A DNA stretch of 64,000 nucleotides from a bacterium (GTDB lineage: Bacteria; Bacillota; Clostridia; Lachnospirales; Lachnospiraceae). Under the pieces are notes generated by a model, which was given only the letters and a program-made list of their open reading frames with translations, searched no databases and was not told the origin of the DNA. Below are positions 4,885-32,977 of this stretch, in pieces. Every line of letters begins with the position of its first letter. Within the stretch, counting starts at the first letter, position 1. A program made the translations under genes and the position numbers. Where the stretch lies: the NCBI GenBank assembly GCA_030535455.1, contig JAUNJY010000004.1, positions 62,001-126,000 on the forward strand. Direction: 5' to 3'.

Positions 4885-4952
4885 TTGTATTCCTCCTTTT
4901 TCGAATTATACTTGGTATAATTTACATTATATCTGGTTTTTTCTGTAAAATC

Positions 4953-4984: not shown

Positions 4985-5004
4985 CTTTACTTAAAATTCA
5001 ATTA

Positions 5005-6834: not shown

Positions 6835-6902
6835 TAAATCTCCTCCTTTTTTATGTTCCCTTAATTTATCTCAAGCCATATGACATGGCTAAAAGACATT
6901 CA

Positions 6903-7832: not shown

Positions 7833-7835
7833 CCC

Positions 7836-9257: not shown

Positions 9258-9352
9258 TTTGCCCTCCTATTTTTTTTGAATAGTTTAATGACTTAACTAT
9301 AGTATATAGGAAATATAGATGAATTTACACCTGAGATATTATACATGAAATA

Positions 9353-9396
9353 CCTTAATTTTTAGTTATTGTGATTTCTATGACTAAAAATTAAGG
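9353..9396. terminator. 14-bp hairpin after the YesN gene
   Basis: Arms CCTTAATTTTTAGT (9353-9366) and 9383-9396 pair perfectly. On the minus strand the tail is only TATTTC, so termination may be partial. A TATAAT (minus, 9338-9343) lies just beyond and could be the -10 of the permease operon, without a recognisable -35, as expected for an activator-dependent promoter. Confidence 0.5.
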
Positions 9397-9428
9397 TTTT
9401 TTATCTCGCTATCGTAAATATCTCTTTT

Positions 9429-10967
9429 TTAAGAGTTTTTCTCCTTTTTAAACTCTTTTGGGCTAACCCCCACATATTTCTTAAACTTAGAACAGAAATA
9501 GTCAATATTGCTAAACCCTACTTTTTCAGATACCTGATACACCTTCATACTTCCAGACAATAAAAACTTTTTTGCATTTTCAATTCGAAGCTTATCTAAG
9601 GTTACGTTAAAGCTTTCGCCAAACTCCTTCTTAAATACCTTGCCTAAATACGCGCTATTATAGTTAAACATCTTGGCAATGTTTTCAAGTTTTAGCTCTT
9701 TATCATAGTTTTTCTCCATATATGCATACATTCTTTTGACAACATTATCTGATGATGTATTGCCGATGCAATCACAAAGCTGACAGGCGAATTTTGTAAC
9801 ATCCTCCTTTAGCTGCTCGATTGAAGTAGCTTCCATAATCATAGCGGTTACCTGACTTAGGTTTGGAAAATGATCCTTAATCTGTTCATAGCGTTTACAT
9901 AGGTTATTATGTAATAATATAAGATTTTGTGCTGTTAATACTTTAATCTCTGACTCCTGAATCAAGCTTGTCTTTATATGTTCTTCATAGCTTTCTATGG
10001 ATTGATGGATTCCCTCTTTATCTCCCACTTCTATCATATTACAAAGTCGTTCTACAAAGTTCTCAAGGTATCCCTGCTCCACATTTTCAAACATCTTAAT
10101 TGTGAGTGCTCCCTCTGAGTCATATAAAAACTCATAATCCAGTAAGAGTTTTGCACATTCATACGAGTATACTAAATCCCTCCAAGAAACGACAGTATGA
10201 CCAAATGTTAAGAAAAATGCTTCTCCATCTCTATTCTTTATCTTTCTGTTATTGGCACATAACAGCTTGCTTGCTTCCTCATACGTACGCCCTTTCAGAA
10301 TTAAGATGGCTTTGTCTTCCTCATTAATGATCTCGGTATTATCCATCCCTGCCAATAATACATCCAGCTTATCATCAACCACTGATTTTTCTAAAATACA
10401 TTCATCTTCTAACATCTGTGTATTGAACTTTGCAATACATACACAGTAGCAATCAAAGGTAAAATCAATCTCATATAGCGTCACGTCTTTTTGTAATAAA
10501 GACATTTCAAGCCTATGGGACAGTACTCTTCTTAACACTTCTTGTTTTGCTTTCTTTACACTGATTGATACATAAGATTCATGAAGTCTCTCCTGATCAA
10601 ATTCTTGCTTGATTTCATCAAGCATTCCATGCACCTCATCTTCATCAATTGGCTTCAAAAGATATCCCTTTACTCCTAAATTAATTGCCGCCTTGGCAAA
10701 ATAAAAGTCAGAGTATCCTGTTAGTATGAGGAAGCTTCCCTTAAATCCTTGTTTTCTTGCTTCTTCCACTAACTCAATTCCTGTGAGTCCTGGCATCTTT
10801 ATATCTGCCAGTACAAGATCCGGTTGATACTCCTCTATCTTTTTAAGTCCATCTTTTCCGTCAATGCCTTCTGCACAGATTGTAAATCCATGCTTCTCCC
10901 ATTCGATTAACTGTCTGATTCCCTCTCGAACAATTGTCTCATCGTCAACAATTAGTACATTATACAT
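9429..10967 (-). CDS. Response regulator with AraC-type DNA-binding domain, YesN type
   Basis: A 512-aa cytoplasmic transcription regulator. Residues 1-120 are a receiver domain with acidic pair D8-D9 and phospho-acceptor D55 in LADIKMPG. The middle ~280 residues are a poorly conserved linker. The last ~100 carry two helix-turn-helix motifs of an AraC/XylS domain, including YNSAYLGKVFKKEFGESF and VGFSNIDYFCSKFKKYVGVSP. It lies 24 bp downstream of the YesM-type kinase gene and upstream of the importer, so it most likely activates the importer operon on sensing its substrate. Confidence 0.93.
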   Translation of the reverse strand: MYNVLIVDDETIVREGIRQLIEWEKHGFTICAEGIDGKDGLKKIEEYQPDLVLADIKMPGLTGIELVEEARKQGFKGSFLILTGYSDFYFAKAAINLGVKGYLLKPIDEDEVHGMLDEIKQEFDQERLHESYVSISVKKAKQEVLRRVLSHRLEMSLLQKDVTLYEIDFTFDCYCVCIAKFNTQMLEDECILEKSVVDDKLDVLLAGMDNTEIINEEDKAILILKGRTYEEASKLLCANNRKIKNRDGEAFFLTFGHTVVSWRDLVYSYECAKLLLDYEFLYDSEGALTIKMFENVEQGYLENFVERLCNMIEVGDKEGIHQSIESYEEHIKTSLIQESEIKVLTAQNLILLHNNLCKRYEQIKDHFPNLSQVTAMIMEATSIEQLKEDVTKFACQLCDCIGNTSSDNVVKRMYAYMEKNYDKELKLENIAKMFNYNSAYLGKVFKKEFGESFNVTLDKLRIENAKKFLLSGSMKVYQVSEKVGFSNIDYFCSKFKKYVGVSPKEFKKEKNS

Positions 10968-10991
10968 TTGTCTCTCCTTTAAGAATATTGT

Positions 10992-12803
10992 TTAATCAGC
11001 TTCTATTGGAATTGCAATAACTACTGTTGTTCCCTGATTTTCAACAGTTTCAATCGTTACTCCATACTCCATTCCATATAAAAGTTTAATCCTTTGATTT
11101 ACGTTACTTAATCCGATATGACTTTTATCTAATTCATCTAAATCATTCATGGACGCTAAAAGTTCCTCTAAATATGTATCTTTTATACCTATTCCATTAT
11201 CTTCAACAATAATTTTAATTACCTTATTTTCCTCTTTGACTGCGATCTTTAGTATTCCTGGACCTTCTTTTGACTCAAGTCCATGAACGAATGCATTTTC
11301 TACAATCGGCTGAATTAATAACGGTAAAATTGGCCTGTTTTCTAATTCTTTCTCAACCTCAATTTCATACTGGATGCGGTCTCCAAATCGATAGTGCTGA
11401 ATTTTAAGGTAATATTCTACTAATTCGATTTCAGATTTTATTGATACAAACCGATCACCCACCTGAATATTCCTTCGCATTATTTTTGCAAGCATCTTTA
11501 CCAATTCCTCAATATCGCTTTGATTGTTCACTCTTGCCTTCATGCGAATTGTCTCTAACGTGTTGTAAAGGAAATGGGGATTGATCTGACTTGCAAGCAT
11601 TTTAAACTCTACATCTTTTTGTCTTGAATATATCTTTTCTTTTTGAACCTGCTCCTCAACAATTTTAGACATCAGTACTTGGATACTATCTATCATCTTA
11701 TGTAAATCCTCATACAATTCGCTAATCTCATCATTCTGACCAAGTACAGTTTCAATATGAAAATCTCCATTTGCTGCCTTATGCATTTCTCGCTTCAAAA
11801 TATTTACCCGATGACTAAACTTATGAGAAAATGTAATAATCAAAATTAGCGATAACGATACACATATGATAATAAACATAAATCCAGTTCGTTTGCTTCG
11901 GTCAGTGGCGGCCAAAATTTCACTATATGGCCGTATGCTTACAATTGTAAAATAAGAGTCAGAGTATGTAGGATGAATGCGCTCGTACGTCAGGATACAT
12001 GTCTCATCATTATATGTAACCTTCTTATAACTCTCATTTTCATCCTCCGGCATAGACTGGACAAGCTTGATCAGTTCTTTTACATCAATCTCATCATCAT
12101 TGGTATGTATTACTTCTTCATCATTTAACAACATTGCAGTCTTATTGGTGCGATTGGAAATTGGAAGTTCTGTCCGCTTATTCTGCATTACAATAGACAA
12201 TACACCTACTGTCTTTCCTTCTGCTGTCTTGATTACCCTGGTTAGGCGAAGTGAGTTTTTCATAGTGACATTGCTGTATGTATAGCTCCAGATAGGTTTT
12301 CCATCTGCCGAAATAGTATCGTTATACCATTTTGAGTTACGAATGTTCTGGTCTGCATAAACAAAACTTCCACTATTTGCAATTGTCTTATTGGTTAGGT
12401 ACATGGTGATACTGCTGATTTCTTGGTGGTAATCTGTAAGATACTCTGAAAACCTTGTATAATTTCGATAGTCTGTTAATAGTTCTTTATAGCTATTGTA
12501 ATTGTAAAATGCAATATGCTCGATTTCCTCATCAAAATATAGTTTCTTTGAGACATCGGTCACTACCCGTATATTTTCATTCAATGCATCTTGAATTAAG
12601 GATAACTCCACGAACTCAGATTGTTCTGACTGATTGATCAATGTGTTATTTGTACCATTGCTAAAATATACGCTGACTGCAACTAACGGAATAATTCCGC
12701 ATACTGTATAAACAATTAATAATCGCTCTTTTAGCTTTATATTCCTATGTAGTTGACAAAGTTCATAGTGCCATTTTTTTAAGTATTTCATTCTCCCACC
12801 CAT
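10992..12803 (-). CDS. Sensor histidine kinase, YesM type
   Basis: A 603-aa membrane sensor kinase. The order is a first membrane helix near residues 25-48, an extracellular sensor of about 250 residues, a second helix near 308-330, HAMP, then His_kinase with phospho-site SQINPHFLYNTLETIR, then HATPase with NAFVHGLESKEG and DNGIGI. The INPHFLYN motif defines the YesM/LytS-like group. It should sense an extracellular sugar or its binding protein and phosphorylate the YesN partner encoded next. The start is uncertain: the ATG of MKYLKKWHYE, four codons in, is also possible. Confidence 0.93.
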   Translation of the reverse strand: MGGRMKYLKKWHYELCQLHRNIKLKERLLIVYTVCGIIPLVAVSVYFSNGTNNTLINQSEQSEFVELSLIQDALNENIRVVTDVSKKLYFDEEIEHIAFYNYNSYKELLTDYRNYTRFSEYLTDYHQEISSITMYLTNKTIANSGSFVYADQNIRNSKWYNDTISADGKPIWSYTYSNVTMKNSLRLTRVIKTAEGKTVGVLSIVMQNKRTELPISNRTNKTAMLLNDEEVIHTNDDEIDVKELIKLVQSMPEDENESYKKVTYNDETCILTYERIHPTYSDSYFTIVSIRPYSEILAATDRSKRTGFMFIIICVSLSLILIITFSHKFSHRVNILKREMHKAANGDFHIETVLGQNDEISELYEDLHKMIDSIQVLMSKIVEEQVQKEKIYSRQKDVEFKMLASQINPHFLYNTLETIRMKARVNNQSDIEELVKMLAKIMRRNIQVGDRFVSIKSEIELVEYYLKIQHYRFGDRIQYEIEVEKELENRPILPLLIQPIVENAFVHGLESKEGPGILKIAVKEENKVIKIIVEDNGIGIKDTYLEELLASMNDLDELDKSHIGLSNVNQRIKLLYGMEYGVTIETVENQGTTVVIAIPIEAD

Positions 12804-12840
12804 AAGTTATCCAAATTCTATTTTTTTCCTTATATCTACC

Positions 12841-12868
12841 ATTGTACCTAATCTTCGCCTAATTTCAA
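12841..12868 (-). promoter_or_regulatory. Promoter of the YesM/YesN pair
   Basis: Minus-strand TTGAAA (12863-12868), 16-bp spacer, TACAAT (12841-12846), about 40 bp upstream of the kinase start. Confidence 0.55.
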
Positions 12869-12941
12869 GTTTCATACTTTACGATTTTTACACTTTATCT
12901 GATTTTTTTCCACTTTCACATTTTTCTAAAACAAAAAAATA

Positions 12942-12969
12942 ACCCCCTTCACAAAATAGTGACAGGGGG
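12942..12969 (-). terminator. Distal copy of the yjiH terminator hairpin
   Basis: CCCCC and GGGGG arms with inner TCAC/GTGA. A long A run immediately left (12931-12940) gives a strong U tract on the minus strand. The 28 bp are identical to 13206-13233; this copy is the one able to terminate minus-strand transcripts. Confidence 0.75.
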
Positions 12970-13205
12970 GCAGACTGTAGACAATTAAATTCTAGCAGTC
13001 ACTTCAACGCACTGCTTATAGGAAAGTTTGAAAACCATAGGTTTTCATTAAAATCGATATCCGGAAACCGCGCTTTTCGGATATCGGATTAGTGCGAATA
13101 GGTCCTTATTTTTAAGGACTTGCACGAGTGAGCACTAATCATTTCCTTCGGCACTGGATGAAAGCCTGATTTCATCCAAAGCTTGGCGACCTTGTCGACA
13201 AGCTG
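12970..13205 (-). repeat. Family 1 structured repeat, full-length copy (A)
   Basis: A 236-bp non-coding segment inserted between two identical terminator hairpins and read in the same direction as the upstream gene. It folds into at least six stems: CTTGGCGAC/GTCGACAAG (13182-13202), GGATGAAA/TTTCATCC (13156-13177), GATTAGTGC/GCACTAATC (13087-13140) enclosing GTCCTTA/TAAGGAC (13102-13119), CGATATCCG/CGGATATCG (13055-13086), GAAAACC/GGTTTTC (13030-13046) and AGCAGT/ACTGCT (12994-13016). It ends in TGTCTACAGTCTG on the minus strand. Shorter relatives lie at 26268-26330 and 46162-46273. No reading frame is present. It could be a mobile structured RNA or a relic of one. Confidence 0.75.
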
Positions 13206-13233
13206 ACCCCCTTCACAAAATAGTGACAGGGGG
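13206..13233 (-). terminator. Proximal copy of the yjiH terminator hairpin
   Basis: Same 28 bp as 12942-12969. It lacks a U tract on the minus strand (CAGCTTG follows) but keeps a T run on the plus strand. This is the expected result if one bidirectional terminator was duplicated by insertion of the repeat. Confidence 0.7.
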
Positions 13234-13243
13234 TTTTTATATT

Positions 13244-14605
13244 TTAAAATAATAAATGTGCAATTCCAGCTATGATTGGTAACGTAATTATTGTACGTTC
13301 AATAAAAATAATTACTAAATCTTTTAGTTTTACTGGGATTTTAGAAGCAAGTAATAATGCTCCAACTTCTGATAAATAAATTAATTGGGAAACCGATACG
13401 GCTGCTACAACAAATCTTGTTATGTCGCTTTGCACAGCATCTGCCACCATAACAGATGGAATTAACATATCTGCAAATCCTGCAAACATTGCCTGAGCAG
13501 CTGCATGTGCTTCTGGAAGTCCTAAGATCTGTAACAATGGTACAAATGGAAGTCCTAAGTATCTAAAGATCGGTGTATATTCTGCAATGATTAGGGCTGT
13601 TGTACCAACCATCATAACGATCGGAATTACACTTACCCACATATCAATTACATTTTTCATGCCATCGATTACGATACTGTCAAAGACTTTGACATCCTTT
13701 ACTTTGTCTAACGCACATTCAATGCCGTAAGATACGCTTGCCTTGTTCTCATGTTCTTCTAAATGCTCTGGTTTTGTTCCATCAATCAATGTATCGCGTT
13801 TTCTTGATAATGGTGGTAATTTTGGAATAACGATTGCTGCAATGATACATGCAAATGTTACAGTTAAATAAAACTGTAAAAACATACTGCCAAGTCCAAC
13901 CGTGTTGATTACCACAAGACTGAATGTAATGGATACTAATGAAAAGTTTGTTCCTATGATACAGGCCTCTTTTTCTGTGTAATATCCATCTTCATATTGT
14001 TTGCTTGTTAATAATACGCCGATTGTACCATCACCTAGCCAAGATGCAATTGCGTCAACTGCACTTCTTCCAGGTAATCCGAATATTGGACGCATGACTT
14101 TGATTAATAAGGTTCCTACAAACTCCAGTAAACCAAAATTTAATAGTAATGGCAGACATATTCCTGCTATTAAGAAGATGCTAAATAATACTGGCAATAA
14201 GTCTCTAAATACAAGACCGCCTGTTGCTGTTGATGCAATCATCTCATACTGTGGAAAGAAGTATGTAATAATTACATACATTGTTGATATTCCACGTATC
14301 ACTAAGCTGAGTGGCTTAATATCAAATAATGTCTGTATAAGCTCCAACTTTAATAATTTTATATTTGGATTGAATTTTTTTATAGTTTTTATAAGAATAC
14401 TTCCAAAAAAAGAAGTACAAATTAACACGACTAAAATAATATTAATATATTGTCTAAAAAAGTCCATTAATGAATTAGATAATATTGCAATTGGTATTGT
14501 AAACTGTCCATCTGCTTTAATTGGAAAAATAAACAAAATAATTCCGATTAAAGATGGAATAATAAATTTTAAATAATTCTGTATCTTATGATTAATATTC
14601 TCCAT
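13244..14605 (-). CDS. YjiH-family membrane protein with nucleoside-recognition (Gate) domains
   Basis: A 453-aa polytopic membrane protein with about ten hydrophobic segments. Two halves carry Gate-like features, for example FGLPGRSAVDAIASWLGDGTIG near residue 190 and EAHAAAQAMFAGFADMLIPS near 380. This is the layout of YjiH-type proteins of the nucleoside-recognition family. Members are thought to be transporters or transport regulators, but substrates are not established. It appears to be a single-gene transcript with a consensus promoter at 14646-14674 and a terminator that has been split by a family 1 repeat. Confidence 0.82.
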   Translation of the reverse strand: MENINHKIQNYLKFIIPSLIGIILFIFPIKADGQFTIPIAILSNSLMDFFRQYINIILVVLICTSFFGSILIKTIKKFNPNIKLLKLELIQTLFDIKPLSLVIRGISTMYVIITYFFPQYEMIASTATGGLVFRDLLPVLFSIFLIAGICLPLLLNFGLLEFVGTLLIKVMRPIFGLPGRSAVDAIASWLGDGTIGVLLTSKQYEDGYYTEKEACIIGTNFSLVSITFSLVVINTVGLGSMFLQFYLTVTFACIIAAIVIPKLPPLSRKRDTLIDGTKPEHLEEHENKASVSYGIECALDKVKDVKVFDSIVIDGMKNVIDMWVSVIPIVMMVGTTALIIAEYTPIFRYLGLPFVPLLQILGLPEAHAAAQAMFAGFADMLIPSVMVADAVQSDITRFVVAAVSVSQLIYLSEVGALLLASKIPVKLKDLVIIFIERTIITLPIIAGIAHLLF

Positions 14606-14645
14606 ACTTACTCCTATTTCTTGTCCGTTACGTGTGTCTTATTGC

Positions 14646-14674
14646 ATTATAGTAGCATAATACAGATTATTCAA
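14646..14674 (-). promoter_or_regulatory. Promoter of the YjiH-type gene
   Basis: Minus-strand TTGAAT (14669-14674), 17-bp spacer, TATAAT (14646-14651), 40 bp before the ATG. Confidence 0.65.
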
Positions 14675-14801
14675 GCAAAATATGAATATTTATTAATTTT
14701 TTTATAATTTTATACATATATATTCATACATAACAACCATTTATTCTCATTTTCTCCTAATTTCGTAAATATTAATACATTACACAACTTTATCTTATGA
14801 T

Positions 14802-14848
14802 AAAAAAAGAGCTATTATACATTTCATTGCTCTGTATAATAGCTCTTT
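14802..14848 (-). terminator. Bacteriohemerythrin terminator
   Basis: 16-bp perfect arms AAAGAGCTATTATACA (14806-14821) and 14833-14848, with an A run on the left that gives a U tract on the minus strand directly after the hemerythrin stop. Confidence 0.85.
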
Positions 14849-14854
14849 CTATTT

Positions 14855-15286
14855 CTATTGTCTTTGCTTCATTTTCTCTTTTATTTCTAATCCCATATGC
14901 TTATCTGCATTAAACATGTGTTCAAAGATCCAGTCTTGCGTACCATCTTTGATCTTCTTAAGCTCATCAAATGGCATTTCTCCCAATTTAGGAAGATCGA
15001 TTGATAAGACCATTTCATTCATTTTATTATGAGATGCAATATGAGCTTCCTTTAATGAATAATCAAATTCATTCATTACTTTTTCTTCCTCATAAAAATG
15101 ATACGATACAAACTCTCTTAACTGTCTTACTACGTCAATCAGCTGCTGATTGCTGACACCTATACATCTTGTTATGAGCAATTGCTCCATATCCCTAACA
15201 ATACGAAATAATTCCCTATGTTGCTCATCTATCTCTGGAATGCCTACTTCGAGCTCCTTTTTCCAATCAAACTTAAAATCAAACAT
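14855..15286 (-). CDS. Bacteriohemerythrin
   Basis: A 143-aa oxygen-binding di-iron protein. The start is taken at MFDFKFDWKKEL because GGGGAG lies 8 nt before it; an upstream in-frame start would add 26 hydrophobic residues unlike the family. Iron ligands are visible as DEQHRELF, YHFYEEEKVM, HIASHNKM and FEHMFNADKH, the usual H...HxxxE...HxxxH...HxxxxD set. In an anaerobe it likely binds or scavenges oxygen in the cytoplasm, or senses it. It stands alone with its own terminator. Confidence 0.93.
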   Translation of the reverse strand: MFDFKFDWKKELEVGIPEIDEQHRELFRIVRDMEQLLITRCIGVSNQQLIDVVRQLREFVSYHFYEEEKVMNEFDYSLKEAHIASHNKMNEMVLSIDLPKLGEMPFDELKKIKDGTQDWIFEHMFNADKHMGLEIKEKMKQRQ

Positions 15287-15388: not shown

Positions 15389-16132
15389 TTACTTTAGTAG
15401 TTCCTTAATATTAAGAAGTCCCCATCCTTGCTTACTCCAAGGCTGGCCCATATCGATGCAGCTATTCTTTATGCGAAGCTTTACTTCCTGGGTTGTCATT
15501 TCCGGATATTTATTGAGTAATAATACGATTGCCCCTGAAACCATTGGTGTTGCCATCGAAGTTCCGCTCTTGATCGTATAGAGTTGAATGTCTCTTTTTG
15601 GTGCAAAGAAATTAAATCCACCTCTTTGTTTCGTCACATTGCATGAAACAATATTAGATCCAGGTGCTACCACATCCGGTTTTTTTATACATGCATTGGT
15701 AGGTCCTCTTCCTGAATAATCTTTTGCCCTGCTACCTGATAATTCAACGCTTACATCATCATCAGAAGCACCTACTGTAATCACTTTCCTACTAATTCCA
15801 GGTGTTGAAATGGACTTAGGTTTTGGCCCGTTATTTCCCGCTGCTACAACTACAATTATCCCTGCATCCCAGACAGCATTCACACCTTTTACTAATGCTG
15901 AATTTTCATCATAACAATCAGATGATGTAGTTCCTACTGATATATTTACTACACGGATATTAAACCGTTCCTTATTATTTACTACCCACTGCAATCCTGC
16001 CAAAACATCTGATACATTACCATTTCCTTTATTATTTAATACCTTTACTCCAATAATATTACATGCTGGAGCTATTCCCATATATTCTCCACCTGATTCA
16101 TGACCATTTCCTGCGATGATACCACACACATG
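15389..16132 (-). pseudogene. Subtilase (AprX-like S8 peptidase), C-terminal part of an interrupted gene
   Basis: The distal part of a subtilisin-like protease. It contains the oxyanion-hole asparagine in VVAAGNNGP and the catalytic serine in SGTSMATPMVSGA, then a complete C-terminus. It lacks the catalytic Asp and His. Those are 8 kb away at 24107-24570 on the same strand. The reading frame enters at 16132 exactly at an attachment site; V156 (GTG) is the first codon wholly inside this part. The 246 residues plus 155 of the N-terminal part give an intact 401-aa intracellular-type subtilase without signal peptide. No ribosome site precedes it, so it is probably silent unless the element leaves. 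Confidence 0.9.
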
Positions 16133-16154
16133 TGCGTGATGTTTGTATTCCTAA
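16131..16154. other. Left attachment site of the element (core TG plus one attP arm)
   Basis: Core dinucleotide TG (16131-16132), then a 22-bp arm 16133-16154 that begins TGCGTGA and ends TATTCCTAA. This arm is the imperfect reverse complement of 24085-24106 (17 of 22 positions). The recombinase stop codon (16151-16153) lies inside it. Confidence 0.8.
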
Positions 16155-17698
16155 ATGTTCCAAAAGAAAACCAGTTTTACTTTTCCCGAGTCTTCTTTAA
16201 CACTAATTTCTATGGTCTGAATTAGCGATTGAATTAAATAATAATCTAACTTCTTAATCTCTAATTCCTTCTTTTTCTCTTCTTCTTTTTCATTCTTTGT
16301 AGCTGCTAACTCAGTAATCTCCTTTTCCGTCTGCTTCAGTGACTTATATAGCAGCTCTTGAATTTCAATTCGGTCATTTTTTGTAACAATTCCCTTGGAA
16401 AAATCAATGTATAGCGTGCTCATTGCCTTTAAAATATGTTCCTTTTCATTAATCAGCCGCCCCATATCTGCTTTCTTCATATCTTTTCTATGGAAATTCC
16501 CCTGCAGGACCTGTCGCTCATTCTTTGTAAGATAGTGTTTGATTAGCGCATTTATATTTTCTAAAACAATTTGTTCTAATTCGTCGGAGCGGATTGAATT
16601 ACGAGCACATTCCTTACCATTAGATCGCTTATATAGCTGACACATATAATAATAATATCCTTTATTCCTGCTCGTACTTGCTTTATACATGGATTTTTTG
16701 CATTCGCCACAAACTAGCTTTCCGGCAAATACATTTGGTTCCTTCTTCTGCTGCCCTTCTTTGCTAAATGACTTTCGGCGTTGTTTTAAAAGGCTCTGTA
16801 CCTGATCAAACATTTCTCTTGATATGATTGGCTCATGATTATCTTCAATCACATGCCACTGCTCTTTTGGTAAAAGTACAACCTTTTTATCTTTATAACT
16901 AACCTTTCGTTCTCTTCCTTGAATTAACGTTCCAATATAAATTGGATTGGATAGGATTCTCTTGATTGTTGAAATGCTCCACAAACCACTTTTACTGTAA
17001 TAACTATTTGGAGTCTGGTAATTTAGTCCCTGCATCTGCTTATACTGTAATGGTGTTGGTATTTGCTTGGATGTCAGTATCTTAGCAATCTTTCCAATTC
17101 CATTACCTGCTAAATACAATTGATAAATATAGGTTACAATTCCTGCTGCATTCTTATCTATAACAATCTTATGATGATCTGACTCATCTTTCTTATATCC
17201 ATATGCTGCAAATGCAGATATATATTGTCCATCCTCCATTTTCTTTTGTAATACTGCCTTAATGTTCTCCGATAGATCCTCACAATACCACTCATTTACA
17301 AGGCCATTGATCTGCCTTGCTTTTTTCCCCGAGCTAAATGCCGTATCCGTTCCATCTACTACCCCGATAAACCGGATTCCTAACAATGGCAATTCTTTAT
17401 GTAAGTATTTTTCTATATGTTCCATGTTTCTGGAAAATCGATTTTGTGACTTACACAATATAGTATCAAACTTTCCTTCTCTGGCATCCTTTAACATCTG
17501 ATAAAATGCCGGACGCTTTGTATCATAAAGTCCTGAAAAATCTTCGTCAATGTAAATATTATATACCTGATAGCCATGAGCACTGGCGTATTGCAATAAA
17601 AGCAAGCGTTGGTTCTTTATACTCTCACTCTCATCTTCCACATATTTCTTTTCCTCATCTTCCTTGGACAGTCTAATATAAAGGGCTGCCATGGTCAT
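16151..17698 (-). CDS. Large serine recombinase (element integrase)
   Basis: A 515-aa site-specific recombinase. The N-terminal resolvase domain (about 1-150) has catalytic Ser11 in YIRLSKEDE and the arginine motif SQNRFSRN. A Recombinase domain follows (about 165-280, GIGKIAKILTSKQIPTP). Next come a zinc ribbon with CGECKKSMYKAS and YMCQLYKRSNGKECARNS (about 325-375) and a charged coiled coil to near the C-terminus. This is the TnpX/TndX/phage-integrase architecture. The gene ends inside the left attachment arm, the usual position next to att. GGAGGAG lies 7 nt before the ATG. It should both insert and, with a directionality factor, excise the element. Confidence 0.95.
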   Translation of the reverse strand: MTMAALYIRLSKEDEEKKYVEDESESIKNQRLLLLQYASAHGYQVYNIYIDEDFSGLYDTKRPAFYQMLKDAREGKFDTILCKSQNRFSRNMEHIEKYLHKELPLLGIRFIGVVDGTDTAFSSGKKARQINGLVNEWYCEDLSENIKAVLQKKMEDGQYISAFAAYGYKKDESDHHKIVIDKNAAGIVTYIYQLYLAGNGIGKIAKILTSKQIPTPLQYKQMQGLNYQTPNSYYSKSGLWSISTIKRILSNPIYIGTLIQGRERKVSYKDKKVVLLPKEQWHVIEDNHEPIISREMFDQVQSLLKQRRKSFSKEGQQKKEPNVFAGKLVCGECKKSMYKASTSRNKGYYYYMCQLYKRSNGKECARNSIRSDELEQIVLENINALIKHYLTKNERQVLQGNFHRKDMKKADMGRLINEKEHILKAMSTLYIDFSKGIVTKNDRIEIQELLYKSLKQTEKEITELAATKNEKEEEKKKELEIKKLDYYLIQSLIQTIEISVKEDSGKVKLVFFWNI

Positions 17699-17855
17699 TT
17701 TCTATCTCCTCCTCTCCTTCCATATCCTGAATTGCTTGTAAATGTTCTTTATATTCCTGTAAGATTTTATATAGGTTTTCACTTCGTTCCTTTTCATCCT
17801 CACTCTTGAAACGATGGACTACTTCAAATTCCCGCTTGCTTCCTTCTCGCTTCAT
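17673..17855 (-). CDS. Small charged protein overlapping the recombinase start (60 aa)
   Basis: A 60-residue highly charged helical protein (YKILQEYKEHLQAIQDMEGE). It overlaps the recombinase start by 26 bp, suggesting coupled translation. A GGGGAT ribosome site sits before its ATG. I recognise no family. Position and size suit a regulator or directionality factor for the recombinase, but this is inference only. Confidence 0.55.
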   Translation of the reverse strand: MKREGSKREFEVVHRFKSEDEKERSENLYKILQEYKEHLQAIQDMEGEEEIENDHGSPLY

Positions 17856-17962
17856 ACCGTATATCCCCTAATTTATCGCTTACTATATTTTATGATGGAT
17901 TTATGGCATTATGCAAAAGGGATTACCCCTGTAATATTCCAATTACCTGGGCAACCCTTCTA

Positions 17963-19003
17963 TTAGAAACGGATTATATTTTTTGTCGAACCACCAATTG
18001 ATAATTCTGCTGAAAGCATCTTATGCTTATGTACTGACTTTCCCTTAATTACATCAAATAACATATGGATTGTTTCCTGGGCCAGCTGATTTACCGGCTG
18101 GCTGATCGTCGTAATCGACGGATTATAGTATCCGGCCATCTCAATTCCATCAAACCCAACCACAGAATAATCCTCAGGGATTGACTTTCCTGTCTCAAAA
18201 ATAGCTTTACAGGCTCCAATTGCTAAAATATCTGAAATTGCAAATACCGCTGTAAACCCCATCTTCTTATCTAATAACTCCTTCATGACCGCATACCCAT
18301 TCTTGTACGAATACTCTTTACAATCTTCCGGCATATAACCTATCAATTCTTCCTCCGGCTCTATGCCATACTTTTTTAAAGCATTTAAATATCCTTCCAG
18401 CCTAAGACGTCCAATACTCTGATCTGCTTTTGCTGCTGTTATAATGGCGATTTTTTTATGACCCTGATTAATCAGGTATTCTACTGCCTTATAGCTTTCC
18501 TTTCGATCATCTACTGCAATTGAGGAATACTTATTTTTATCCATATTCTCAACAATACTACTGACCGTACTTATAATAAATGGAACATTAATCAGCGCCA
18601 GCTTTTCTTCAGAATGTATAAACAGGCCTCCTAAGAATACAATCCCGCGCAAATGCCTTTCATTCTCAAGTTCAATTGCAACATCAATCTCATCTTCATT
18701 TGGCTTCACATGCCGAAGTACAAGAGCATATTTGTTACGCTTAATTTCTTCTTCCATAATTGTAAGCATTGTTGAAAATAGGGGATTATTCATCCCTTTG
18801 ACTAAGATCGCTATGGCTTTGGCATCGTATCTTTTTAAATTTCTTGCACTATTGTTGGGTATATAATTATACTCCTTTACTACTTCTAAAATCATCTCTT
18901 TAGTCGCAGTATTAATATCAGGATGGTCATTAATTGCCCTGGATACAGTGCTTACACCAACGCCACATAGCTTTGCAATATCTTTAATTGTAATTTGTTC
19001 CAT
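17963..19003 (-). CDS. LacI-family transcription regulator of the element's sugar operon
   Basis: A 346-aa repressor-type protein. The start is placed at MEQITIKDIAKL because AGAGGGGATTACT precedes that ATG; an earlier ATG would add six residues. The N-terminal helix-turn-helix IKDIAKLCGVGVSTVSRAIN and hinge NNSARNLKR are typical. A periplasmic-binding-protein-like effector domain follows to the C-terminus. It is the fifth gene of the sugar operon. Two palindromes of LacI operator type flank the -10 of the operon promoter (23911-23940 and 23965-23976), so it probably represses the operon in the absence of a maltodextrin-like inducer. Confidence 0.92.
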   Translation of the reverse strand: MEQITIKDIAKLCGVGVSTVSRAINDHPDINTATKEMILEVVKEYNYIPNNSARNLKRYDAKAIAILVKGMNNPLFSTMLTIMEEEIKRNKYALVLRHVKPNEDEIDVAIELENERHLRGIVFLGGLFIHSEEKLALINVPFIISTVSSIVENMDKNKYSSIAVDDRKESYKAVEYLINQGHKKIAIITAAKADQSIGRLRLEGYLNALKKYGIEPEEELIGYMPEDCKEYSYKNGYAVMKELLDKKMGFTAVFAISDILAIGACKAIFETGKSIPEDYSVVGFDGIEMAGYYNPSITTISQPVNQLAQETIHMLFDVIKGKSVHKHKMLSAELSIGGSTKNIIRF

Positions 19004-19053
19004 AGTAATCCCCTCTTGCATCTATTACGTAAGATTAATTTATCCTTACTAGC

Positions 19054-20535
19054 TTATTTTCTACCATATAGTGTAACTACATGTTTTATCTTTTTTACTA
19101 ATTCATCCGTAAATTCATCTTTTTTCATTCTCCACTTCCAGTTTTCCCCTTGCGAACCCGGACGATTAATTCTTGTCTCACTACCAAGTCCTAAATAATC
19201 CTGGATTGGTATGATACAAGTATCTGCAACACTGGCCAATGCCAAACGAATAATATACCAATGAAACTCCTTTTCATTACCATCCTGTAAATCTACATAA
19301 TCCTTTAAGAAGGCACGATCTTCTTTGCTAATCTCACTATACCAGCCAAGAAGTGTGTTATTGTCATGGGTTCCTGTATATACAACGCAGTTCTTATCAT
19401 AATTATGAGGCAGATAATCGCTGTCTTCTCTAGAGTCAAAGGCAAACTGCAATACCTTCATACCAGGATATCCACTTTTTCTTACCAGGCTATAAACTGC
19501 TTCATTTAAAAATCCTAAATCTTCTGCAATTATTGATACCTCTCCAAGTACTCGTTTTATTGTCTTAAAGAACTCAATTCCAGGTCCCCGTTTCCATGTA
19601 CCAACTTTAGCTGTACTGCTTCCTGCCGGAATTGCATAATATTCCTCAAATCCTCGAAAATGGTCCAGCCTGATAATATCGTACATGATTAAACTATGAC
19701 GAATTCGGTTTACCCACCATTCATAATCTGTACTCTTTAAATACTCCCAGTCGTACAATGGATTTCCCCATAACTGTCCATTCTCTGTAAATGCATCTGG
19801 TGGACATCCTGCCACATGGGTCGGATTATTCTTCTCATCGTATTGAAATAAAGATGGCTGCGAAAAACAGTCTGCACTATCAGTTGCAACATAGAATGGA
19901 ATATCTCCTATGATCTTAATTCCCTTGCTATTTACATAGTCCTTTAGTTTACGCCACTGTTTAAAGAACATGTATTGCTGGAATTTATACGATAGAATAT
20001 CTTCTGCCAGAATTTCCTCATAATGAAGCACTATCTCTGATTTTCTCAATCGGATGTCTTCTTCCCAAGTAACATAACTTGCTCCATTATGAGCCTTTTT
20101 CACAGCCATATATAAAGCATAATCCTGTAACCAGTAACTATTCTCTTCCTCAAATTTATAAAATCCATCTTCTATATGTTCCTTGAAACGCTGGAATGCT
20201 TCTTCTAATATTTCATTACGAGTATTATATACCTTCCCATAATCCACAGCTCTTTCATCATCGCCTACGTCTAGGCTCAAAACTTCCTCTTTTAATAAGT
20301 ATCCTTCTTCCACTAACTGGTCTAAGTCAATAAAATAAGGATTTCCCGCAAATGTAGATAGCGCCTGATATGGTGAATCTCCAAACCCTGTAGGTCCTAT
20401 GGGTAGAATTTGCCAATACTTTTGTCCTGCCTCATAGAGCTTATCAACAAACTCAAAGGCTTCTTTTGAAAAACTTCCGATGCCATACTTCGAAGGCAAA
20501 CTCGAAATAGGTAATAAAATACCGCTTCCACGCAC
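19054..20535 (-). CDS. malQ: 4-alpha-glucanotransferase (amylomaltase, GH77)
   Basis: A 493-aa GH77 enzyme, normal bacterial MalQ length. It transfers glucan chains between maltodextrins in the cytoplasm and releases glucose. Visible blocks are MRGSGILLPISSLPSKYGIG at the N-terminus, the nucleophile Asp in IIRLDHFRGF, the acid/base Glu in SIIAEDLGF and the third carboxylate in YTGTHDNNT. The start is GTG with GGAGAG upstream. It lies 17 bp after a permease gene. It indicates that the adjacent importer takes up alpha-1,4-glucans. No maltodextrin phosphorylase accompanies it in the element. Confidence 0.96.
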   Translation of the reverse strand: MRGSGILLPISSLPSKYGIGSFSKEAFEFVDKLYEAGQKYWQILPIGPTGFGDSPYQALSTFAGNPYFIDLDQLVEEGYLLKEEVLSLDVGDDERAVDYGKVYNTRNEILEEAFQRFKEHIEDGFYKFEEENSYWLQDYALYMAVKKAHNGASYVTWEEDIRLRKSEIVLHYEEILAEDILSYKFQQYMFFKQWRKLKDYVNSKGIKIIGDIPFYVATDSADCFSQPSLFQYDEKNNPTHVAGCPPDAFTENGQLWGNPLYDWEYLKSTDYEWWVNRIRHSLIMYDIIRLDHFRGFEEYYAIPAGSSTAKVGTWKRGPGIEFFKTIKRVLGEVSIIAEDLGFLNEAVYSLVRKSGYPGMKVLQFAFDSREDSDYLPHNYDKNCVVYTGTHDNNTLLGWYSEISKEDRAFLKDYVDLQDGNEKEFHWYIIRLALASVADTCIIPIQDYLGLGSETRINRPGSQGENWKWRMKKDEFTDELVKKIKHVVTLYGRK

Positions 20536-20552
20536 TATAATCTCTCCTTTGC

Positions 20553-21395
20553 TTAACCTTTTACTGCCCCTGCAACTACGCCTTTAATAATATATTTCTG
20601 ACAGCAAAGATAGAATATAATAATTGGAATAATCGCTAATACAAGAAGTGCCATTAAAGCACCATAATCTTTTGCACCATATGATCCCATCAGGTATTGA
20701 ACTACAACAGGAATTGTCTTATATTCTGTTGATAAGCCAATTGTCAAATATGGTAACAGATAATCATTCCATATCCACATTGTATTCAGAATTGCCACTG
20801 TAATTACTGTTGGTTTTAAAATTGGCACAATTATTGTAAAAAACATCTTTATTGGGCTGCATCCATCAATTAATGCTGCCTCCTCAATCTCTACCGGAAT
20901 GGATTTTACAAACCCGGAAAACATAAATACTGATAATCCGGCACCAAATCCTAAGTAAATTACAATCATCCCCCAAGGTGTATTCAGATGCAATGTATCC
21001 GTTAATTTTGACATTGTAAACATAACCATCTGAAAAGGAACAACCATTGAAAATACAAACATATAGTATAGAAATGAAGTCAGTTTTGATTTGACACGGG
21101 TAATGTACCAAGCTGTCATCGCAGTACATAACAGGATTACTAATACGGATCCTACTGTAATAAATGTGGACCATCCAAATGCATGAAAAAATGAAGTCCG
21201 CTCTATGCCTGTAGTGTAATTTGATAAGCTGGCAAACATCTCTCCCTTCGGAATACTAAAAGGATCACTGCTTATATAAAGTTTTTCCTTAAAGGAGTTC
21301 AGTATTACAAAGAATACCGGAGCAAAGAAAAGTACCACTAAGACACAAAGAATTAAATAGATAAAAAAGTTACAAATCTTCTCTTTCCGTATCAT
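20553..21395 (-). CDS. Sugar ABC transporter permease, MalG type
   Basis: A 280-aa CUT1 permease with six membrane segments. The EAA loop is EEAALIDGCSPIKMFFTIIVPILKP, and the C-terminus ends IKGVVAGAVKG, as in MalG/GanQ proteins. It overlaps the other permease gene by 4 bp (ATGA), so translation is coupled. Next to malQ, it most likely imports maltodextrins. The ATPase (MsmX-like) is not encoded in the element, so a host ATPase must serve. Confidence 0.93.
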   Translation of the reverse strand: MIRKEKICNFFIYLILCVLVVLFFAPVFFVILNSFKEKLYISSDPFSIPKGEMFASLSNYTTGIERTSFFHAFGWSTFITVGSVLVILLCTAMTAWYITRVKSKLTSFLYYMFVFSMVVPFQMVMFTMSKLTDTLHLNTPWGMIVIYLGFGAGLSVFMFSGFVKSIPVEIEEAALIDGCSPIKMFFTIIVPILKPTVITVAILNTMWIWNDYLLPYLTIGLSTEYKTIPVVVQYLMGSYGAKDYGALMALLVLAIIPIIIFYLCCQKYIIKGVVAGAVKG

Positions 21396-22237
21396 GACTC
21401 CACCTCCTTACTTCTAGTAAACCGAAGTTGTGCAAAGGCAATTACTGCTACCAAAACAAAGAACATGACAGCCTTTGCCTGCCCTACTCCTTCAAAACCA
21501 TTCCTTCCATAGAAGGTATTATAAATATCCAGTGCAAGCATCTGCGTCTGTTTAGCAGGTCCACCTCCGGTAAGAGCCAGATTCTGATCAAATAGTTTAA
21601 ATGAGTTGCTAAGTGTTAAAAAGGTGCAGATCGTTATTGATGGCATTACCATGGGTATGGTGATGTACCGTAATCTCTGTGTGGCACTTGCTCCATCAAC
21701 TTTGGCTGCATCGATCAAATCAGTCGGTACATTTTGCAATGCTGCAATATAAATGACCATCATGTATCCAACCATCTGCCAATTCATTAGAATAATCAAA
21801 CCCCAAAAACCATACTTGCTATCACTTAATAAATTCAAATCAAAGTTTGAAAGTACGCCATTAATAATACACTGCCATATGTAACCTAAAACAATTCCGC
21901 CTATTAAGTTAGGCATAAAGAAAACCGTTCGAAAAATATTCGTCCCTTTGATTTTCCTTGTTAATGCCAAGCTTAGTAAAAAAGCGAATACATTGATGGA
22001 AACCAGTGCTACAATTGCAAATTTTGCTGTAAACCAAAGTGCATTTAAAAATTCCTTATTGTTTGAAAAGGCCTTTATATAGTTATCAAACCACACCCAC
22101 TTTGTATCTGTTACTGTTGTAAAAGAACAAAAGGAAAGGTAAATACCGTAAACAAATGGAATGACAAATGCAATGGCAAAAGCAATCAATGTTGGTAGTG
22201 TAAACACAAAGAAATATTTCTTTAATATACGCTGCAT
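21392..22237 (-). CDS. Sugar ABC transporter permease, MalF type
   Basis: A 281-aa CUT1 permease with six membrane segments, lacking the large extra domain of enterobacterial MalF as usual in Gram-positives. The EAA loop is IDAAKVDGASATQRLRYITIPMVMP. GGAGGAG lies before the ATG. It pairs with the downstream permease in the importer. A leaky hairpin separates it from the binding-protein gene. Confidence 0.93.
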   Translation of the reverse strand: MQRILKKYFFVFTLPTLIAFAIAFVIPFVYGIYLSFCSFTTVTDTKWVWFDNYIKAFSNNKEFLNALWFTAKFAIVALVSINVFAFLLSLALTRKIKGTNIFRTVFFMPNLIGGIVLGYIWQCIINGVLSNFDLNLLSDSKYGFWGLIILMNWQMVGYMMVIYIAALQNVPTDLIDAAKVDGASATQRLRYITIPMVMPSITICTFLTLSNSFKLFDQNLALTGGGPAKQTQMLALDIYNTFYGRNGFEGVGQAKAVMFFVLVAVIAFAQLRFTRSKEVES

Positions 22238-22309
22238 AGATACGCTCCTCCTTATAAATAACCACTTATTTTTGTGATTTTTGCCATTACGATTCCCGTT
22301 CGGTTAAGA

Positions 22310-22374
22310 AAAGGGGCTACCCCAAAATACAATCTTCTTAAGAAGATATTCACGTATCTTGCGAAAGCCCCTTT
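22310..22374 (-). terminator. Intra-operon hairpin after the binding-protein gene
   Basis: Outer arms AAAGGGGCT (22310-22318) and AGCCCCTTT (22366-22374) enclose a palindrome ATCTTCTTAAGAAGAT (22332-22347). On the minus strand CCCCTTTTCTT follows, a modest U tract. This probably reduces permease expression relative to binding protein. Confidence 0.6.
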
Positions 22375-22481
22375 CCTATTCAGTCCTACACTTATGTCAT
22401 CTTGGAGTCAGCCTAAGATGTGCTTGATAATAAAGTAAGTCATATATGTCAACTAATGGTGTAGCATATTCAATTTTTCTG

Positions 22482-23831
22482 TTACTTCGTAGCAGCTTTC
22501 TCGCTTTCCCAATCCTTAATTACTGCTGTCTTTAACTCATCCCAGGACATCTTATTATTTGCATACTGTAATAAATCAGCGCCAAAATTATCTTTAAATG
22601 TCTGACTTGGGAAAGATGGGTATACCCATGATACTGTGTTCAAAGAGGTATCACTCATGAACTTAATTACTTCTTTTGCTAATGGATCTGTAGGTTTCTC
22701 GTCATCCTTAAATGTCGAGAATGGAGAAATAAAATTCAAGTCATTGGTTACAGCATTTTTGCCATAATCAGAATTGTATAGCCACTGTATAAAGTCAATA
22801 GAAGCCTGTTGATCTTCTTTTGATGCCTTGCTGTTAATACAGAAGAAGTTTTCTGTACCGATACATAAGCCTTGTGTCTCTTCTCCCTGCACTCCTGTAT
22901 AAATAGGTAAATATTTTACTTTGTCTTCTTTTACAACGTTACCCTTTGTTCCTGAAATCTGAGACCAAGCCCAGTTTCCGTTCTGAACCATTGCAACTTT
23001 GCCAAGTGCAAACTCAGCCATAGAGTCATTTACTGACTTGCTGCCTAACATCTCAGGCTTCGTACAAGAGTTATTAATATATAAATCAAATGTATTCTTG
23101 AAGTTATCTGCATATGTAAATTCAAGTTTATCTGTATCTACAATACCTTTGTCTTTGTATTCATAGTAAACAGGCATATTAGCTAAATGAGTCTGCCATC
23201 TCCAGTCATCTCCTGGTAATAAAGAAGTAGATGCGAAGACACCTTCAATATTCAGCTTATCTTTCTTTGCCGTCATGTCTTCCACAACTTTCTTTAACAT
23301 ATCAAAGTTTTTAATTTCTGTTGTTGAACTAATATCAACTGCTTTATCACTTAAAGCAAAATACTTGTCCATAATCTCTTCATTATAAATAATTCCATAT
23401 CCTTCAACAACATATGGAATGCCATAAACACCGTCACCATCTTTTACTGCCATGTTCTTATCAATTAACCAGCTATATAAATCTGTATCCTTTAAGTCCA
23501 TACAATAATCTTTCCAATTCTGATAGCCTACCGGACCATTAATCTGGAACAGAGTTGGTGCATCTGTTTTTGCAATTTCTGATTTTAATGTCTGTTCGTA
23601 TGTACCATTTGCTGCCGTTACAACCTTTACTTCTATGCCTTTTTCCTTTTCATACTCTTTGGCGATGTTCTGCCAAACTTGATCGGACTCAGGCTTGAAA
23701 CTCAAATAATAAACCTTGCCTTTCTTAGTCTCCTCATTGGATGTCTTCTCACTGTCACTGTTTCCGCAGCCAGTAAGATAAATTGCAGCTACAACCAGAA
23801 TCATGAGCATACTAATAAGCTTCTTTTTCAT
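22482..23831 (-). CDS. Sugar-binding lipoprotein of the element's importer
   Basis: A 449-aa family 1 extracellular binding protein. The lipobox is IYLTGC (Cys22). The mature protein begins with a polar linker and then KGKVYYLSFKPESDQVWQNI. The central block EFALGKVAMVQNGNWAWSQI is characteristic of maltodextrin/oligosaccharide receptors. It is the first gene of the sugar operon, 120 bp downstream of the promoter and operators. With malQ in the same operon, maltodextrin is the best guess for its ligand. Confidence 0.92.
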   Translation of the reverse strand: MKKKLISMLMILVVAAIYLTGCGNSDSEKTSNEETKKGKVYYLSFKPESDQVWQNIAKEYEKEKGIEVKVVTAANGTYEQTLKSEIAKTDAPTLFQINGPVGYQNWKDYCMDLKDTDLYSWLIDKNMAVKDGDGVYGIPYVVEGYGIIYNEEIMDKYFALSDKAVDISSTTEIKNFDMLKKVVEDMTAKKDKLNIEGVFASTSLLPGDDWRWQTHLANMPVYYEYKDKGIVDTDKLEFTYADNFKNTFDLYINNSCTKPEMLGSKSVNDSMAEFALGKVAMVQNGNWAWSQISGTKGNVVKEDKVKYLPIYTGVQGEETQGLCIGTENFFCINSKASKEDQQASIDFIQWLYNSDYGKNAVTNDLNFISPFSTFKDDEKPTDPLAKEVIKFMSDTSLNTVSWVYPSFPSQTFKDNFGADLLQYANNKMSWDELKTAVIKDWESEKAATK

Positions 23832-23910
23832 ACTTCTCTCTCCTTTATTATTGCTTTTTTTACTTTCTTAAGTAGCTTATTATTTTTTCAATTAGTGCGG
23901 CTGTATTTCC

Positions 23911-23940
23911 ATTGGAAACGTTATCGGGAACGTTTCCAAT
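23911..23940. promoter_or_regulatory. LacI-type operator 2 of the element's sugar operon
   Basis: A perfect 12-bp inverted repeat, ATTGGAAACGTT (23911-23922) and AACGTTTCCAAT (23929-23940), separated by 6 bp. It lies just downstream of the -10, about +7 to +37 of the transcript. Confidence 0.7.
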
Positions 23941-23953
23941 GTTTCATGGCTTT

Positions 23954-23982
23954 ATCGTAGCACCGTTTCGCGAAACATTCAA
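23954..23982 (-). promoter_or_regulatory. Promoter of the element's sugar operon with operator 1 in its spacer
   Basis: Minus-strand TTGAAT (23977-23982), 17-bp spacer, TACGAT (23954-23959). The spacer holds the perfect palindrome GTTTCGCGAAAC (23965-23976), a LacI-type site; a CcpA site is the alternative reading. Confidence 0.68.
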
Positions 23983-24084
23983 CCATTATTTGGAAGTTTT
24001 GCATTCTAATTATTTATTCATTTTCAAATGCCATTACTGCTACTTATAACGTGTCCTAGTTTTTACAATAACGTTTCTTTTTCG

Positions 24085-24108
24085 TTAGGAATATAGTGTT
24101 CACGCATG
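24085..24108. other. Right attachment site of the element (one attP arm plus core TG)
   Basis: A 22-bp arm 24085-24106, starting TTAGGAATA and ending TCACGCA, then core TG (24107-24108). It mirrors the arm at 16133-16154. Subtilase sequence resumes at 24109. Confidence 0.8.
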
Positions 24109-24570
24109 TGTTCCATGACCATTGTCATCATACGGATACCGCCTTCCATTTACAACGTCATAAAATGCTACAATCCGGTTCTTTCCGTATGTTAAATCTG
24201 GATGTGGATAAACTCCTGTATCAAGGACAGCAACTCCGACCCCTTCACCAAAGATCTGTTGTTGTCTTGCTGTATCCAACTGAATAATATGGGCAGCACG
24301 ATTCATTTGCGCATGAATAATGGTATCCATCTCAACGTTCATTTCATTCTTTATGTGGCAATCGCAAGTAAGCAGCGACTCTGTCAATCCCTTCTCTACT
24401 TCAATTACTACTGAATCTATCATTGGAAGAGCATATTTGATACAATAATTATTTGTAACCCTTGTTACACTCTCTTTCAGTTCGTGGTTGGTTACAATAA
24501 TCTGAACCTTCTCAGTGTTATTCCCTTTTTGCTTCTTTCCAAATCCCATATATTTCATTTCATTATCCAA
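24100..24570 (-). pseudogene. Subtilase (AprX-like S8 peptidase), N-terminal part of an interrupted gene
   Basis: The N-terminal 155 residues of the protease, then one foreign codon (Ala) and TGA inside the attachment arm. It has the catalytic Asp in GVAVLDTGVYPHPDL and the catalytic His in DDNGHGTH, at the exact break. There is no signal peptide, in line with AprX-type intracellular subtilases. It lacks the Ser and the oxyanion Asn, so this product cannot be a protease alone. The start is uncertain: TTG at 24570 or ATG at 24558. It faces away from the sortase gene. Confidence 0.88.
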
Positions 24571-24717
24571 ACCTACATTACCTTGCTATCTTACGATTAC
24601 GTATGATCAGTCCTAACAGCCGTAATGTAAATTATGCATATTTCACCTCATAGAGTTCATCACTAATATATTATTCAAGTCCCTCCTGTTTTGTTATTCT
24701 ATCAAAGGTCTATTTTA

Positions 24718-25971: not shown

Positions 25972-26229
25972 ATGAGTGATTTAACAACTACTAACTGTGG
26001 TAATGGCTGTGGCTGTAACGATGGATGTGGAAACAATGGTTTTGGATTTGGCGGAGATAATGGATGCTGCTGGATTTGGATCATAATCCTTCTTCTCTTC
26101 TGCTGTGGCGGAAACGGTTTTGGTGGTAATGACTGCGGATGTAACGATGGCTGCGGTAATAATGGTTTTGGCGGAAGCTGCTGGATCTGGATTATCCTTA
26201 TCTTCTTCTTCTGTGGTGGCTGCTGCTAG
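25972..26229 (+). CDS. Cys/Gly-rich small protein with internal duplication (85 aa)
   Basis: An 85-residue protein made of two tandem units. Each has a CGCNDGCGNNGFGG tract followed by a hydrophobic run, CCWIWIIILLLFCC then SCWIWIILIFFFCGGC. Fourteen or so cysteines dominate. The RBS is AGGAGG at good spacing. Similar short Cys-rich WIW proteins occur in Lachnospiraceae, sometimes annotated as chorion-like. A spore-coat or exosporium role is plausible because of the sigma-K-like promoter, but no function is proven. Its terminator has been duplicated by a family 1 repeat. Confidence 0.82.
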   Translation: MSDLTTTNCGNGCGCNDGCGNNGFGFGGDNGCCWIWIIILLLFCCGGNGFGGNDCGCNDGCGNNGFGGSCWIWIILIFFFCGGCC

Positions 26230-32666: not shown

Positions 32667-32783
32667 CTTGAACAAAGTGCGTGGGACACACACTTTGCAC
32701 GCGCCGAACCTGGTTGCGCATGCGACATTCTCCTCTCAGGTGAGTGCGCATCGTGCGCCCTGTCTTTTCCAGGGCGTTTTTTT
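32667..32783 (+). ncRNA. Family 2 structured repeat, copy 1
   Basis: A 117-bp non-coding unit. It reads as hairpin P1 (AAAGTG...CACTTT), GCGCCGAA, stem P2 (ACCTG/CAGGT) enclosing hairpin P3 (GCG...GCGACATTCTCCT), GAGTGCGCAT and a terminator hairpin (CGCCC/GGGCG) with seven Ts. It is about 95% identical to copy 2. Outer flanks form an 11-bp inverted repeat (GCCTTCTATTC). No ribosome sites fit its reading frames. I cannot name an RNA family. Confidence 0.65.
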
Positions 32784-32820
32784 AATGAATAGAAGGCTGT
32801 TCAGAGAACAGCCTTCGCTT

Positions 32821-32936
32821 CTTGAACAAAGTGTGTGGGACACACACTTTGCACGCGCCGAACCTGGTCGCGCATGCGACATTCTCCTCTCAGGTGAGTG
32901 CGCATCGTACGCCCTGTCTTTTCTAGGGCGTTTTTT
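32821..32936 (+). ncRNA. Family 2 structured repeat, copy 2
   Basis: Same order of elements as copy 1, with a full P3 (TCGC-GCAT-GCGA) and terminator ACGCCC/GGGCGT plus six Ts. It lies antisense to both neighbouring genes. Between copies 1 and 2 is a GAAGGCTGTTC/GAACAGCCTTC hairpin, repeated in altered form after copy 2. Confidence 0.65.
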
Positions 32937-32977
32937 AATGACTAGAAGGCTGTTCGAAGAGCAGCCTTCTAGTCATT
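32937..32977. terminator. 16-bp hairpin after family 2 copy 2
   Basis: Arms AATGACTAGAAGGCTG (32937-32952) and 32962-32977 pair perfectly. T runs lie on both sides. It repeats the GAAGGCTG stem found between copies 1 and 2. Confidence 0.6.

Follow-up and report, generated by a model that had tools for sequence, protein, structure and literature searches.

The 7,976-bp segment that interrupts a subtilase gene in the window analyzed here (a 64,000-nucleotide stretch of a Lachnospiraceae contig) is probably a non-phage gene-intervening element, which would be excised during spore formation to rebuild a sporulation-linked enzyme. As the first-pass annotation had proposed, a single subtilase is present as two parts on the same strand, and both open reading frames and Pfam matches bear this out. 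The N-terminal half (24100..24570, minus strand) carries the catalytic Asp and His and ends in DDNGHGTHA and a stop at the element, and the C-terminal half (15389..16129, minus strand) carries the Asn and Ser and begins with VCGIIAGNG, at the V of HGTHV. Both match Peptidase_S8, the first over profile positions 1-59 and the second over positions 60-288. The word CATGTG is common to both breaks (16129-16134 and 24105-24110) at a spacing of 7,976 bp, placing the serine-integrase element inside the HGTH catalytic motif to the base. When the flanks are joined, HGTHVCG returns within a single open frame of 401 aa that reads ...DDNGHGTHVCGIIAGNG... across the joint. In this reconstruction the gene is split in frame and restored by precise excision, and the attB site falls within the codons of the catalytic motif, as had been claimed; each measurable point of the first-pass annotation holds.

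The two attachment sites are attR (24083..24130, minus strand), with the overlap dinucleotide TG at 24107-24108, and attL (16110..16156, minus strand), with TG at 16131-16132. The outer arm of attL includes the stop codon of the integrase (16151), in keeping with the earlier placement of the end of the recombinase gene inside an attP arm. Joining the element ends yields the predicted palindrome about TG (CA in gene sense), with 17 of 22 arm positions symmetric. When 100,000 junctions were drawn at random from window DNA, each scored at the best of five centers, only 4 were as symmetric. An attP site symmetric about a 2-bp overlap is that of a large serine integrase. Scored over 24 positions about CA, symmetry was 17 in the window genome (G000), 13 and 12 in two genomes of the same genus (G002 and G003), and 13 in another family genome with a split subtilase (G302), with chance probabilities of 2e-5, 0.004, 0.013, and 0.004, respectively (50,000 random junctions); attP symmetry thus persists in G002 and G003, though weaker than in the window. 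The attR of G003 reads CACAGG and its attL CACATG, a variant that fits an exchange inside the gene-sense CA. A 17-letter pattern fitting attL, attR, attB, and attP matched only attL and attR when the genome's own assembly was searched, with no copy of attB or attP; the assembled state is therefore the integrated one.

The element brings its own site-specific recombinase together with its att sites. The large serine integrase (515 aa; 16151..17698, minus strand) has Resolvase, Recombinase, and Zn ribbon domains, and its closest match among solved structures is the SPbeta integrase YokA. Overlapping its start is a 60-aa open reading frame (17673..17855, minus strand) with no Pfam or NCBIfam family match; an open reading frame of 54 to 60 aa is kept 5' of the integrase in all three species (window, G002, and G003), and we regard it as a candidate recombination directionality factor. 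The remaining genes, all on the minus strand, are the metabolic cargo that had been described, recognized here by profile matches: a LacI-type regulator (17963..19021), kept in G002 and G003, the GH77 4-alpha-glucanotransferase MalQ (19054..20535), two sugar ABC permeases (20553..21395 and 21392..22237), and an extracellular solute-binding lipoprotein (22482..23831). A further MalQ, 49% identical to that of the element, is encoded at another site in the genome. The open reading frames of the element thus comprise the integrase, the unmatched 60-aa frame, a regulator, an enzyme, and a transporter; their Pfam and NCBIfam matches include no phage structural or replication genes that would mark a prophage, and no conjugation genes that would mark an integrative conjugative element. 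A phage or plasmid origin was considered and rejected, as the top phage record matched at 45% over 65% of the integrase protein and plasmids at no more than 41%.

The subtilase follows the sporulation gene SpoIVA closely. Among 397 genomes of the family, 236 carry the subtilase and 256 carry SpoIVA; 228 have both, 8 the subtilase only, 28 SpoIVA only, and 133 neither (Fisher p 6e-66, for genomes that are not phylogenetically independent). The SpoIVA search matched Bacillus subtilis alone among 14 control genomes, and SpoIVA is present in 35 of the 36 genomes with an integrase match at E < 1e-90. The link between the subtilase and sporulation is strong but indirect, and the eight genomes with the subtilase only count against the sporulation model. 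Immediately before the subtilase start lies a sigma-K-like promoter, AC-N16-CATACGTAA (24597..24623, minus strand), conserved in G002 and one mismatch from CATANNNTA, the sigma-K-type -10 motif. Among 44 subtilases from the retrieved loci, 17 have CATANNNTA in the upstream region, compared to 3.6 expected and 4 with it on the reverse strand. A sigma-E-like promoter, GCATAAT-N13-CATAAAAT (17887..17914, minus strand), lies 5' of the small open reading frame and the integrase, with the same form in G002 and a variant in G003. This form is not enriched before integrases related to that of the window (3 of 49, where 0.88 would be expected, the pattern having been composed with these three cases already known). 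It is therefore weak evidence, and a sigma-E promoter as a general feature of these integrases is not supported. CATANNNTA upstream of the integrases is likewise uninformative, since it is equally frequent on the two strands (reverse, 17 of 49; forward, 16 of 49), and an apparent reverse-strand CATACA signal proved to be coding sequence of the small open reading frame in one integrase type (the Dac type described below). In Clostridioides difficile, the csp promoter matches sigma-E, and expression of the manganese catalase coat operons drops in a sigK mutant (PMC3789822).

The relatives of the integrase point the same way, as the clade appears devoted to spore-linked genes. Scanning genomes with the integrase as query gave 25 loci, the best of them (L001) in metagenome-assembled genome S3R_St_47 (G002). 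Subtilase halves were found at 1 locus, 3 were left unassigned, and at the other 21 a D-Ala-D-Ala carboxypeptidase (Dac; Peptidase_S11), cut within SANDACVA, is represented by one half or both. The family search found matches in 72 of 397 genomes at 1e-70, and 26 of the 30 loci kept (the window's own included) have target halves: subtilase (3), CspB-type protease (2), Dac (6), and manganese catalase (15). The other four comprise two short integrase forms and two unassigned loci. These calls count one or both halves within the stretch examined around the integrase, with the half at L107 and L111 visible only in a wider stretch, and the 25- and 30-locus sets share genomes. The cut sites lie in conserved, mostly catalytic codons; that in the CspB-type germination protease (CspB_prodomain) is the same HGTHV, and the Dac att sites form a separate palindrome, GTCTACTAT...ATAGTAGAC. 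Judged by family or profile, the three other targets are spore genes: the manganese catalases resemble those of the spore coat, and the Dac ortholog (defined as E < 1e-60) co-occurs with SpoIVA in 243 genomes, with 4 having Dac only, 13 SpoIVA only, and 137 neither. Against this background, it is unlikely that excision is regulated by growth or sugar signals and not by sporulation: the cargo serves catabolism and comes with a LacI regulator, but siblings of the element that carry different cargo interrupt other spore-linked genes, and the subtilase tracks SpoIVA.

In a 55-row tree, Dac integrases, manganese catalase integrases, and short forms each cluster, and those of the window, G002, and G003 group together (100/100); deep branches are long and unsure. 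Subtilase-splitting integrases occupy three positions (window/G002/G003, G302, and G383), and the splits in G302 and G383 are therefore likely to be separate insertions. By an automatic rule that missed the window's own frame and made some false picks (e.g., L002, L009, L012, and L086), a small open reading frame precedes 44 of 53 integrases, and its sequence type tracks the target. Several loci have features of their own. At L132 (G057:C29:15000-33000, 7238-14867) a CspB-type germination protease gene is split at HGTHV, and in the same genome the other subtilase is split at the AAGN motif (L090). At L141 (G267) and L150 (G275) manganese catalase genes are split, perhaps by nested elements; L141 has a second, broken-up integrase match, and at L150 the C-terminal half of the catalase is matched in two places.

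The element is not a recent arrival. Locus L001 in G002 has the same element at the same place with the same cargo, and the split with this cargo was found in three of four genus genomes examined (G000, G002, and G003). In the fourth (G001, a single-contig genome) the subtilase gene is intact and the closest integrase is only 29% identical. Between the window and G002, synonymous divergence (dS) near saturation ranges from 0.64 to 2.0 for seven element genes and from 0.48 to 1.9 for five flanking genes, with dS of a sixth flanking gene, sortase, saturated. Compared to G003, dS is mostly saturated, but element and flanks show overlapping ranges of protein identity. Most of the genomes are draft assemblies, the window's own being listed at 7.7% contamination. 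As dS of the element lies in the range of its flanks, the element has been resident since before these species diverged. Purifying selection acts on both subtilase halves and on the integrase (dN/dS in the G002 comparison: C-terminal half, 0.030; N-terminal half, 0.117; integrase, 0.059; small open reading frame, 0.068), and the subtilase gene is therefore probably rebuilt and used. The broken gene appears to have been selected as a protein throughout its residence; a dead gene or an idle integrase would look different. The contrary pattern to which the first-pass annotation had pointed, decayed halves and no empty sites, is absent, the halves being conserved and the G001 gene intact. Its suggestion of a currently mobile sugar-use cassette does not hold up, as three species share element and cargo and synonymous divergence is in the flank range; a recently moved cassette is rejected on the same overlap of dS and conservation of cargo.

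It is accordingly very unlikely that a selfish or mobile integrative cassette of sugar genes happens to use the HGTH codons as attB and does no more than inactivate the protease. An integrase, att sites, and cargo are all present, a VirB4-like gene (recognized by eye) lies near a related integrase in L004, and integrases 43 to 45% identical to that of the window occur in three viral contigs (L161 to L163, the first with tail-like genes), with no target-gene half within the stretches examined there. Against such a cassette stand the overlap in dS between element and flank across species, the dN/dS of 0.03 to 0.12 kept by the halves, and the identical cargo set in three species. Also very unlikely is a functional split protease put together from separately produced halves, although both halves are conserved and each has an open reading frame with a possible start. 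The Shine-Dalgarno-like word nearest to the GTG of the C-terminal half is at least 17 bases upstream, conservation of the integrase and of the att arms would then be superfluous, and most subtilase matches listed from other genera are a single open frame.

We therefore favor regulated excision. Starting from what is established (the anatomy, the restoration of the frame, long residence in a single lineage, purifying selection, the association with sporulation genes, and the target choice of the clade), we infer excision itself, when and in which cell it takes place, and what the small open reading frame does, as follows. The element would stay integrated in growing cells, leaving the subtilase gene divided. 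As a spore forms, the integrase and its 60-aa partner would recombine attL with attR across TG, probably in the mother cell and under sigma-E, releasing an 8-kb circle and restoring HGTHVCG. The rebuilt subtilase would then be produced late, perhaps from the sigma-K-type promoter. The germ line would retain the element and its sugar operon because the mother cell dies.

The element would work like skin, SPbeta in spsM, and gin, with which it shares the structural features that can be read from DNA; the likeness in logic to skin and spsM drawn in the first-pass annotation, and its assignment to the large serine integrases, are upheld. The gin element in gerE of Bacillus cereus ATCC10987 is likewise non-phage and has a symmetric att site; it rebuilds a sporulation gene, as proposed here, and pairs serine recombinase with a small factor, GirX, comparable to the integrase and the candidate directionality factor here (PMC5595907). 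It interrupts another gene, is identical in two strains, and is thought to have moved recently (PMC5595907), whereas the window element is old, vertically inherited, and loaded with a sugar operon. SPbeta in spsM of Bacillus subtilis also has a large serine integrase, with which it rebuilds a spore-envelope gene, but is an active prophage (PMC4191935), in contrast to the 8 kb without a recognized phage gene here. The skin element of C. difficile, a Clostridia species, splits a mother-cell gene and has a small directionality factor, both as proposed for the window element, but its target is sigK and it is prophage-like (PMC5025042); its CD1234 is listed under sigma-E (PMC3789822). Finally, yin in yabG of Clostridium botulinum splits a sporulation protease gene, as the window element probably does, and has a serine recombinase; its circle has been seen, but it is prophage-like, confined to one strain, and absent from its site in a fraction of cells at every time point tested (PMC10747680). 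The open-licence PMC literature yielded no account of the Lachnospiraceae elements described here; the closest paper (PMC6907783) concerns spore genes as cargo of mobile elements and not split genes. What is new is an old, vertically inherited, non-phage element with sugar-operon cargo, whose integrase belongs to a clade devoted to spore-linked genes. In print we found only a handful of gene-intervening elements in spore formers, mostly prophage-like. Here a single integrase clade interrupts several genes linked to spores throughout a major family of the gut. The reasons for which spore formers put up with broken genes, or retain them, thus become open to testing, and spore-linked genes and their recombinase partners become predictable from sequence alone.

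Subtilases are split in at least 9 of 225 genomes (out of 236 bearing the gene; those outside the count include G033, G038, G261, G354, and G390), seven at HGTH (G000, G302, G383, G099, G395, G286, and G250) and two at the AAGN motif (G057 and G006) with three recombinases, as in gin (PMC5595907). The G302 element is 11 kb long with different cargo, and in G383 the halves lie 57 kb apart on one contig, the N-terminal piece being a 49-residue match. At L091 (G006:C2:16000-34000, 3620-15126) the segment that splits the gene at AAGN contains three serine recombinases in tandem along with apparent genes of fatty-acid synthesis. In G099 and G395 (one genus), G286, and G250, no integrase was found within the stretches examined around the split subtilase. 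Each of these four genomes has, elsewhere, a short integrase 50 to 58% identical to that of the window (309, 318, and 325 aa in three; the fourth without a clear start). Separate halves with a short integrase elsewhere suggest, with moderate confidence, recombination in trans. In G099 the halves are separated by apparent topoisomerase IV genes and an ABC exporter (L081, G099:C20, 5447-13746) and the 309-aa integrase is on another contig (L127, 5946-6875); in G395 matching between-halves genes lie on two contigs. Where apparently essential genes (topoisomerase IV, fatty-acid synthesis) lie between the halves, excision might be tolerable only in a cell doomed to die.

The att arms still mirror each other in two of the short-integrase genomes, with symmetry of 18/24 in G099 and 16/24 in G395; as the letters differ between these species, the arms have changed together. 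Comparing the two, pN/pS is 0.42 for the N-terminal half (63 codons), 0.30 for the C-terminal half, 0.20 for the short integrase, 0.20 and 0.24 for two flanking genes, and 0.29 and 0.49 for two between-halves genes; selection on these halves is weaker but present. The split gene in G286, with halves on two contigs and att symmetry of 6/24, may be decaying. In G250 (L094, G250:C2:430000-443000, 7086-5953) the gene is circularly permuted: the C-terminal half precedes the N-terminal half, and attP-like arms flank the pair, so that recombination would release the complete gene on a 1.1-kb circle; symmetry there is 10/24 (chance 0.08) in a single genome, with no genus mate among the 31 searched. 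We advance only tentatively the broader idea that the clade might be a standing part of Lachnospiraceae sporulation, keeping four spore-linked genes split and in some genera acting in trans.

Elsewhere in the window, a small Gly/Cys-rich protein without a Pfam match is encoded near the subtilase (25972-26229) and resembles small spore or coat proteins. Two short open reading frames (32668-32979 and 40172-40821) have internally repeated stretches in their translations and are possible repeats.
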